DNA from: Candidatus Woesearchaeota archaeon | GTDB taxonomy: Archaea; Nanobdellota; Nanobdellia; Woesearchaeales; UBA12501 | Length of the DNA: 36,981 nucleotides | Direction of reading: 5' to 3' | Assembly (NCBI GenBank): GCA_016180035.1 | Contig: JACPCA010000030.1 | Span: 1-36,981, forward strand | Part shown: positions 2,201 through 29,908 of the stretch, piece by piece | Layout of the letters: each line of letters opens with the position of its first letter | Numbering within the stretch: position 1 is the stretch's first letter | Translations under genes and position numbers: made by a program | The notes under the pieces: generated by a model | The model's database searches: none | The model's input: the letters and a program-made list of their open reading frames with translations, nothing else | What the model was told of the DNA's origin: nothing

Positions 2201-2403
2201 GGCTTTGTAGAAAATGTCATCCTGATTTGGGGCGCCGCTGTACCTAAACTTTGTTTACTCTCTTTTATCTCCCACCCTGCCCGGGCGAGGTGGGAGATAA
2301 AAGAAGAGTTCATAGAAAATCACGGCGGCGCCCCAAATCTGTATTTTTTAGTCAAAAACAGCGATTTGACGACTGACTATGAAGAAAGACTTTCTACAAA
2401 GCC
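2201..2403. mobile_element. MITE-like element family A, copy 1 (203 bp)
   Basis: TIRs GGCTTTGTAGAAA.../...TTTCTACAAAGCC; nested stems GATTTGGGGCGCCGC and CTTTTATCTCCCACC; flanked by perfect 9-bp direct repeats CGTGCCCTC (2192-2200, 2404-2412). Confidence 0.9.
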
Positions 2404-8690: not shown

Positions 8691-8927
8691 GGCTCTGTCC
8701 TGAATTCCTGTTAAAGGGGTGCTACAACAGGAAATTTTGGATTTCCTTAGTTGCGCTCGCTTCGCTCGGCAACTGCCAAGCGCCGTGCCTGATATCCTAA
8801 GCAGATGCCCGGATACTCGGAATACAAGCGGTTGGCATATACGAACAGAGCGCAGTAGCACCCCTTTAAGGAAGAGGTTGCTGAGCGAAGCGAACGCAAC
8901 CTCTGAAAAAAGATTTAGGACAGAGCC
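8691..8927. mobile_element. MITE-like element family B, copy 1 (237 bp)
   Basis: TIRs GGCTCTGTCCTGAAT / GATTTAGGACAGAGCC; internal 15-bp stem TTAAAGGGGTGCTAC (8711-8725)/GTAGCACCCCTTTAA (8855-8869) around the conserved core. Flanking 9-mers only 6/9 similar. Confidence 0.85.
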
Positions 8928-16253: not shown

Positions 16254-16298
16254 TGAAAACAATAGGAGCTGTTCTTTTATAAATGTTACTAAACAAAA

Positions 16299-16560
16299 CA
16301 TTTTCTTTTCCTTCCTCACCGCACAGCTATATCGTGTAATCGGAAGGAAAAGAAAATGCTTTTTTTAGAATAAGCTTCCGTCGGTACAACTACGTTGACG
16401 TGTTGGTAGCCTCCGCTTCGCTCCGGCGAATGAGGATGGAATATTGCATAGCTCCGGTTACTTCTTTCGGGTGACCGAGCTTTAGCGAGGTCGCCCAATT
16501 TGTGGAGTCCCAAAACTCCCCCAAGATCTGCTTTGAATGCGAGTTTGGGATGGTAACGCT
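16299..16560 (-). repeat. Mosaic hairpin repeat family C, copy 2 (reverse orientation)
   Basis: Same module order as 540-1045 and 29130-29515 when reverse-complemented. Confidence 0.85.
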
Positions 16561-19796: not shown

Positions 19797-19837
19797 GCTG
19801 TTGGGCGTAAGCTTTTCCTCACGTTACAAGCACATCT

Positions 19838-20192
19838 GGCTCTGTCCCGAATCTCCAACTGGGCGGTGCTGCTGCCGAGCGTCGTGCCCAATAGTCTAAG
19901 CAGATGCTCGGATACTTGGGATACGAACGATTGGCAAATGCGAACAGAGCGCAGCAGCACCGCCCATTTCATACTAGAAAACCTAATTTTTAATAGTATT
20001 TGTTAGGTTTTCTGGTATATAACAGAGGGAAATCATATTAAAAACTAATGCCCTCCGTTATAGGAGGGGAATGGCACTGCTGCGCTTCGTCAGCACACAT
20101 AATCGGCCGTGATACCGAGTTTTTCATTCATTGGTGGGCAATGGATGACTACGCTAGGCAGCAGTGCCATTCCCGACATTCGGGACAGAGCC
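19838..20192. mobile_element. MITE-like element family B, copy 2 (355 bp, extended with extra hairpin modules)
   Basis: TIRs GGCTCTGTCCCGAAT/ATTCGGGACAGAGCC; perfect 9-bp direct repeats AGCACATCT (19829-19837, 20193-20201); internal stems GGGCGGTGCTGCTGC and GGGAATGGCACTGCTGC. Confidence 0.93.
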
Positions 20193-20242
20193 AGCACATC
20201 TCATTACTTTTTCAACTCAACAAATCTGGCAGCTATTATATC

Positions 20243-26494: not shown

Positions 26495-26699
26495 GGCTTT
26501 GTAGAAAATCTCTCTCGTTTTTACTCGTCAAATCGCTGTTTTTGACTAAAAAAACAAGATTTGGGGGCGCCGCCGTGATTTTCCCTGAAAATTCTCTTTT
26601 ATCTCCCACCTCGCCCGGGCAGGGTGGGAGATAAAAGAGACCATAACTGCGTTATGACACGGCGGCGCCCAAGATAGATATCACCTTTTCTACAGAGCC
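26495..26699. mobile_element. MITE-like element family A, copy 2 (205 bp, reverse orientation)
   Basis: TIRs GGCTTTGTAGAAAAT/TTTTCTACAGAGCC with the same internal stems; flanked by CTGGACGCA/CTGGACGTC (7/9). Confidence 0.88.
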
Positions 26700-26708
26700 C
26701 TGGACGTC

Positions 26709-26967
26709 GGCTCTGTCCTAAATCTCGATTAAAGGTGGTGCTATTGCCGAGCGCCGTGCATGATATCCTAAGCAGATGTCCGGATACTCGGAATACGAGC
26801 GATTGGCACGCTCGAACAGAGCGCAATAGCACCACCTTTAACGGAGGCACTGCCGCGCTCCGTTCGCATAAATACTCTGCGTAATCGCAACGAGTCTTCA
26901 GGTATCGCCAGATAGTCTAAGACTACGTTAGGCGGCAGTGCCTCCGAAAAAGATTTAGGACAGAGCC
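26709..26967. mobile_element. MITE-like element family B, copy 3 (259 bp)
   Basis: TIRs GGCTCTGTCCTAAATCT/AGATTTAGGACAGAGCC; perfect 9-bp direct repeats CTGGACGTC (26700-26708, 26968-26976); 19-bp stem TTAAAGGTGGTGCTATTGC/GCAATAGCACCACCTTTAA and 14-bp stem GGAGGCACTGCCGC. Confidence 0.94.
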
Positions 26968-27013
26968 CTGGACGTCAAAAAGCTTATTAAAGAGAACCTG
27001 TTTTTAGTATCCC

Positions 27014-29129: not shown

Positions 29130-29515
29130 GAGCGAAGCGGAGGCTACCTATATATGAATATAGTTCAGTGACGGAAGCTTAACGCCCAGAAAAGCATGTC
29201 ATTCAAAACTCGCATCGCTTCAAACTCGTGGGCGAGTTTTGGGAATCCCCAAGAGGGGCGGCTTCACTTCGTTCAGCCACCCGAAAGAAGCAACTTCGAC
29301 CGTTTTGTTAGACTCCGAACAGAGTGAGGAGTCCACCGACACGCCGATATAGTTCCACAAACGGATGCTTATTCCCAAAAAAGCATTTTGTTTTCCTTCC
29401 GGTTAAGCAGTATAGCTGTGCAATGAGGAAGGAAAAGAAAATGTCTTAGAAAAGCATTTTCTTTTCCTTCCGATTAAACGATATAGTTGTGCGATGAGGA
29501 AGGAAAAGAAAATGA
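29130..29515 (+). repeat. Mosaic hairpin repeat family C, copy 3
   Basis: Near-identical blocks to 540-1045; two successive CATTTTCTTTTCCTTCC-type hairpins at 29384-29443 and 29455-29514. Confidence 0.88.
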
Positions 29516-29704
29516 GGTGAACAGCTTTCCGTGTTTCCCGTCTGGAAGACAGTACACCACAGAACGGAGGCGTTCTTGACTTCGGTGTTCGAAAAGGGAA
29601 CCGGTAGAACCACGCCCCTATGGCCGTTCAAGGCAAGAAAATCAGAGGTAATATTTAAAGGTAACGATGGCGGGTAATTTTTTACCGTCTTTTGCTATGC
29701 TAAA

Positions 29705-29908
29705 GGCTCTGTAGAAAATGTCGTTCAGATTTGGGGCGCCGCTGTACCTAAACTTTGTTTAGCTCTCTTTTATCTCCCACCCTGCCTGGGCGAGGTGGGA
29801 GATAAAAGAAGAGTTCATAGAAAATCACTGCGGCGCCCCAAATCCATGTTTTTTAGCCGAAAACTGAGGCTTGACGACTAAAAACGAAGAAAGATTTTCT
29901 ACAGAGCC
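29705..29908. mobile_element. MITE-like element family A, copy 3 (204 bp)
   Basis: TIRs GGCTCTGTAGAAAAT/ATTTTCTACAGAGCC, very similar throughout to 2201-2403; flanks TATGCTAAA/CATGACAAA only 6/9. Confidence 0.88.

Follow-up and report, generated by a model that had tools for sequence, protein, structure and literature searches.

Gene-less hairpin elements of Woesearchaeales archaea and their probable mobilisation by an IS5-family transposase

Family B in the window and across its source genome

The window, that is, the whole 36,981-nucleotide stretch analysed from a contig of a Candidatus Woesearchaeota archaeon, carries three copies of a repeat designated family B, together with elements of a second family, designated A (Table 1). 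All three family B copies were found where the original prediction had placed them and with the TIRs it had given, and a search of the window with the TIR pattern at up to 3 mismatches returned 13 matches against 3.4 expected, a count that none of 100 shuffles attained. The three repeats are real, gene-less mobile DNA, and family B is a MITE. The lack of coding capacity and the non-autonomous nature claimed for it held; the elements are multicopy at unrelated sites and contain no transposase gene, and the proposed hairpin-modular organisation was recovered as stem modules in each complete copy. The 9-bp target-site duplications (TSDs) that had been described were perfect at copies 2 and 3; the flanks of copy 1 match at only 6/9 positions and therefore represent at best a decayed duplication.

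Table 1. Positions of family A and family B features in the window.
Feature	Positions	Strand	Sequence	Remark
Family A element, diverged	2201..2403	+	GGCTTTGTAGAAAAT...TTTCTACAAAGCC	
Family B copy 1	8691..8927	+	flanks GGGACTGGA / GAGAGTAGA	237 bp; flanks 6/9 matching
Nested double-hairpin insert in module stem of copy 1	8726..8773	+	AACAGGAAAT...GGCAAC	48 bp
Copy 2 TSD, left	19829..19837	+	AGCACATCT	9 bp; perfect repeat
Family B copy 2	19838..20192	+		355 bp; CG subtype; additional AT-rich hairpin between both modules
Copy 2 TSD, right	20193..20201	+	AGCACATCT	9 bp; perfect repeat
Family A element adjoining copy 3	26497..26699	+	GGCTTTGTAGAAAAT...CTTTTCTACAGAGCC	own 9-bp flanks 7/9 (CTGGACGCA/CTGGACGTC)
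Copy 3 TSD, left	26700..26708	+	CTGGACGTC	9 bp; doubles as right flank of adjoining family A element
Family B copy 3	26709..26967	+	ends GGCTCTGTCCTAAAT	complete two-module MITE, 259 bp; TA subtype
Copy 3 module 2 stem, 5' arm	26729..26747	+	TTAAAGGTGGTGCTATTGC	
Copy 3 module 2 stem, 3' arm	26823..26841	+	GCAATAGCACCACCTTTAA	
Copy 3 module 1 stem, 5' arm	26842..26856	+	CGGAGGCACTGCCGC	
Copy 3 module 1 stem, 3' arm	26932..26946	+	GCGGCAGTGCCTCCG	
Copy 3 TSD, right	26968..26976	+	CTGGACGTC	9 bp; perfect repeat
Family A element	29705..29908	+	ends GGCTCTGTAGAAAAT	204 bp; flanks 6/9

The source genome (G000; Woesearchaeales, 1.08 Mb in 66 contigs, 94% complete) contains 62 occurrences of the TIR at up to 2 mismatches, against 1 for the reversed control. 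Pairing of the ends yielded 19 complete family B copies, most of them 259-265 bp long, along with truncated copies and fragments. Copies at unrelated sites share 86-92% identity, and copy 3 is 90% identical to the copy on contig C51. Perfect 9-bp TSDs flank 14 of the 19 complete copies (16/19 when one mismatch is allowed), and none of the 19 shows a perfect duplication of 5-8 or 10-12 bp or at shifted offsets. Elements in other genomes carry perfect 9-bp TSDs in 34 of 55 cases; over the source genome and these genomes together, perfect duplications of other lengths amounted to none at 5-8 bp, one at 10 bp and none at 11-12 bp, with none at shifted positions. When pooled, the TSDs show a preference for GGTTAAACC that is roughly symmetric. 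A 1.9-kb TIR pair on contig C57 of the source genome was considered and rejected, since it encloses no transposase and consists of two unrelated ends. Truncated family B copies (L043 and L046 on contigs C45 and C57 of the source genome, L033, L042) have common breakpoints at stem/loop junctions (GCTAGG| and GCTGCC|), which suggests deletion hot spots at the hairpins.

Family A elements have GGCTCTGTAGAAAAT ends and a length of about 200 bp, and two of their copies in the source genome (L041, L044) possess perfect 9-bp TSDs. As the flanks of the A element beside copy 3 match at 7/9 positions and CTGGACGTC is common to both elements, copy 3 appears to have been inserted into the TSD of that A element. 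A B/A chimera (L033, from 2353) combines a B left end with an A right end, and because it is flanked by a 9-bp repeat (7/9), one enzyme seems to accept both kinds of ends. Two MITE ends stand back to back, in the manner of the A and B elements of the window, on another contig of the order (L112:2017-2181 and 2191 onward; G013:C6) with the 9-bp repeat GGTAAATGG in common, and insertion beside an existing element may be common. The window also holds a further repeat family with AAAAGCATTTTGTTTTCCTTCC hairpins (931-1030, 29351-29521 and 16295-16414).

The hairpin body and the upkeep of its arms

Read in one orientation, a complete copy in the source genome consists of TIR, module 2, module 1 and TIR, and this two-module form measures 262 bp. 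Each module is a near-perfect stem of 15-20 bp with a loop of about 75 nt, and the two modules, as judged by eye from their GAACRGAGCGC motifs, are alike in opposite orientation. Two subtypes exist, with TA or CG at TIR positions 11-12, and both stems differ in step with this dinucleotide. Most relatives carry a single-module form that is size-locked at about 165 bp (162-166 bp outside the genus of the source genome) and comprises a small hairpin beside one TIR, an outer stem of the GGTTAGCAGC type and, at its centre, a core that resembles CTGACATTCCCCGTAGGGGNCAACCCCCTTGTCAG. The interiors of the MITEs showed no similarity to those of the insertion sequences (IS) described below beyond the ends, and therefore did not arise by simple internal deletion; on this sequence comparison, the interior is best described as an older, order-wide hairpin body and not a deleted IS.

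Two kinds of insert were noted within such bodies. A double hairpin of about 48 bp (AACxGGAAAAT...TAGTTGCGCTCGCTTCGCTCGGCAAC) lies inside many MITEs from several families of the order (window positions 8726-8773; L017:1533, L050:8760, L081:3717, L085:826, L117:2012, L171:3412), occupies an identical stem site (C^TGCC) in the source genome and its congener G001 without obvious duplication, and is possibly a second, smaller mobile hairpin. A larger element of 1732 bp (L080:1348-3079, corresponding to G058:C91:1847-3578) is bounded by B-type TIRs, shows a perfect 9-bp TSD (TAAAACAAC) and contains two genes, one for an HTH-nucleotidyltransferase and one for a HEPN protein. They form a pair resembling MNT/HEPN toxin-antitoxin systems, which was apparently inserted near the hairpin loop. 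This pair recurs at 73-74% identity in G024 and G058:C11, where the matched stretch is without element ends.

RNAalifold missed the main outer stem on the order-wide alignment because of misalignment, and a named structure was counted instead. In this structure 92.6% of cells were paired order-wide and 99.1% in G000 and G001, against at most 48% and 51%, respectively, when the arms were slid. Covariation exceeded that of all 500 shuffles; such counts can be inflated by kinship among the sequences, and the kind of change therefore weighs more. In the family B stems, both partners had changed in 63 cells and a single partner in 3, and 2 cells were unpaired. G-U pairs made up 3/463 paired cells (0.6%) in family B and 19/546 (3.5%) order-wide; the corresponding figure for the 5S rRNA of this order, scored on its own RNAalifold structure, was 103/984 (10.5%; p = 1e-14 and p = 6e-7 for the respective deficits). 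G-U and A-C cells were about equally frequent order-wide (19 versus 21), in contrast to 5S rRNA (103 versus 19). The folding energies of the two strands did not differ order-wide (p = 0.90), and the lean of the family B set to one strand was non-significant (p = 0.087). The near absence of G-U intermediates and the lack of an order-wide strand bias indicate that the arms are most likely kept up at the DNA level and not as a strand-specific RNA.

The opposite assumption, that a structured, strand-specific RNA is encoded between the TIRs, the elements being its genes or leaders and the stems being under RNA selection, could draw on the high stability of the folds (z about -9 to -15), on the strong covariation and on stems and a core common to families of the order. 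We consider it improbable given the rarity of G-U pairs, their parity with A-C, which favours neither strand, the similar strand energies and the lack of a convincing Rfam family match: searches of the window returned SRP RNA and 5S only, and permissive searches over the elements returned just sub-threshold miRNA-type models. Strong covariation by itself should accordingly not be taken to indicate a functional RNA, and the elements offer a clean case of inverted-repeat arms that co-evolve while lacking the G-U intermediates that an RNA would be expected to show.

As for the process behind DNA-level upkeep, the arms may be kept complementary by template switching between them, and selection on the DNA hairpin would account for the data equally well. 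Template switching has been described to homogenise the arms of inverted repeats (PMC8604942, PMC8794818). In those cases, as here, the arms change together and near-perfect complementarity is kept; they concern yeast coding DNA and RNA genes, unlike the archaeal transposable element for which we infer the process here, and the idea of arm homogenisation becomes testable in a prokaryotic transposon. More speculatively, and with a low probability in our view, the nested palindrome could be a working part of the element and not a by-product: an order-wide body whose DNA hairpin or cruciform would be needed for transposition or would regulate it. Such a body would be kept complementary by copying from arm to arm, would have retained its length of about 165 bp (one module) or 262 bp (two modules) while the order diversified, and could accept cargo, for example a toxin-antitoxin pair, close to the loop.

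A probable IS5-family partner with the same ends

The search for full-length elements that the original prediction had proposed on the basis of the TIRs was successful in other Woesearchaeales. In G009, two TIRs separated by 896 bp flank the gene for a protein of 272 aa, which became the transposase candidate; the partner IS is about 900 bp long, belongs to the IS5 family and encodes a DDE transposase of about 270 aa. The transposase scored 51 bits against the DDE_Tnp_1 profile (cut-off 23) and 129.2 bits against NF033579 transpos_IS5_2 (cut-off 140), the next family being IS982 with 45 bits, and residues D100, D170 and E222 were invariant in six copies. Two full-length elements have B-type ends and perfect 9-bp TSDs, namely L202 (904 bp, ends GGCTCTGTCCTGAATCTC, TSD GGTTTTATG) and L203 in G081 (898 bp, TSD AATTCAACC). 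Among further copies, L207 has GGCTCTGTTCAAAA ends and the 9-bp TSD CTTAATATT, L215 is full-length with 9-bp flanks matching at 8/9, and L222 (896 bp, ends GGCTCTGTAGAAAATCTC) and L221 are A-ended without a TSD. Searches with the Pfam Transposase_mut, IS1595 and IS240-type DDE profiles gave no candidate bearing these ends, and the two IS256-type (PF00872) matches in G001 and G058 have just weak ends of this kind alongside.

Relatives of the transposase occur in 98/295 genomes of the order; an early search with the DDE_Tnp_1 profile covered ten genomes and left out the informative ones. The congener G001 has B-type IS ends (GGCTCTGTCCCGA) and the transposase C-terminus at two contig breaks, and the source genome retains a decayed, A-ended IS remnant on contig C61. 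No intact transposase was found in the source genome, which is 94% complete, and no relative of it was detected in the MITE-bearing genomes G013, G007 and G003; collapsed repeats in all these MAGs could hide one. The end dinucleotides of IS and MITEs agree within the genome in G008 (TA), G039 (TG) and G001 (CG). In several autonomous copies (L177, L203, L207, L211, L212, L215, L105) two hairpins lie between the left TIR and the start codon of the transposase; the second abuts the start codon in these B-type and related copies and is kept despite sequence divergence, and the hairpins are perhaps a translational guard.

Taken together, the full-length IS5 elements that combine these ends with 9-bp TSDs, the matching dinucleotides and the B/A chimera point to the IS5 family as the source of the mobiliser. 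With a probability of roughly 0.9, we therefore read family B as a MITE on which a DDE transposase of the IS5 family acts in trans, with an order-wide hairpin body whose arms are most likely kept complementary at the DNA level. The transposase would recognise GGCTCTGTCC[YR]AAT(CTC) ends and duplicate 9 bp of target, family A would depend on closely related machinery, and the MITEs would be acted on in trans, the source in G000 presumably being a B-ended IS copy that is now lost or unassembled. Mobilisation in trans, as originally proposed, is thus the most probable explanation, and the resemblance that had been seen to IS256, ISL3 or IS6 ends gives way to an IS5 assignment. The IS903 group of the IS5 family likewise makes 9-bp duplications. 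As in this family (IS5_2-type), the full-length elements combine a DDE transposase of about 270 aa, a length of about 900 bp, short TIRs and a 9-bp TSD; unlike it, the MITEs are gene-less and have only the ends in common, and the partner IS group falls just under the NCBIfam IS5_2 cut-off.

Mobilisation by a transposase of a different family (IS256, IS6 or IS1595), whose ends may also start with GGNTCTGT, seems very unlikely. The first bases of the ends can be in common, and G001 has one IS6/IS240-like transposase; however, PF00872, PF12762 and PF13610 had no match in G000, G013, G007 or G034, the surroundings of the IS6-like gene in G001 contain no end resembling GGCTCTGTCC at up to 2 mismatches, and it is IS5-type elements that carry the exact ends together with 9-bp TSDs.

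Orthologous loci, known MITEs and distribution

For the comparison of loci, 20 kb of the window was set against G001, the sole congener compared, with one genome per species. On whether orthologous loci always carry the element, the observation by which the original prediction proposed to challenge transposition, the outcome was mixed. At the copy-3 locus, upstream of rqcH, a B-type element of G001's own sequence type ends 45 bp from the start codon in G001, against 46 bp in the source genome, and the two elements are either an old shared insertion that was later homogenised or the result of more than one insertion at this position. The copy-2 locus of G001 retains the upstream gene and lacks the element, with different content downstream, and BLAST of the joined flanks against all loci compared returned no clean empty site. 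The near-equal distance at rqcH would suit ancient, fixed, REP-like repeats that never transposed themselves and whose flanking 9-mers are coincidental or part of the repeat, an explanation with next to no likelihood given perfect 9-mers that vary from copy to copy at an unvarying length of 9 with shifted controls at zero, and given the close identity of copies at unrelated sites.

Archaeal MITEs are known from Sulfolobus, Halobacterium, Haloquadratum, Desulfurococcus and several other archaeal genomes (PMC10969869). Family B resembles these prokaryotic MITEs (PMC10969869) in being short, non-coding, stem-loop rich and multicopy, with TIRs, TSDs and presumed mobilisation in trans; unlike them, it has a size-locked body that is common to families of an order and is not a local deletion of one IS. 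A full-text literature search returned nothing pairing DPANN with MITE. Neither MITEs nor IS5 elements are new as such, and, as far as this search shows, the order-wide, size-locked palindromic body and its partner IS5 lineage in Woesearchaeales are new; family B is apparently a large, undescribed family. A mobile-element family of poorly known, mostly uncultured archaea is herewith paired with its likely transposase.

As far as a pattern search reaches, family B appears to be confined to one archaeal group. The paired pattern GGCTCTGTCCNNAAT-N121..151-ATTNNGGACAGAGCC matched 40 stretches across the whole of GTDB r220, each from an entry titled Woesearchaeota or Nanoarchaeota archaeon except one titled just 'archaeon', and a search of IMG/VR gave isolated single-end matches only. 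The TIR at up to 1 mismatch, often paired, was found in 31/61 genomes of the order and, within the family, the TIR was present in 9 of 10 genomes.
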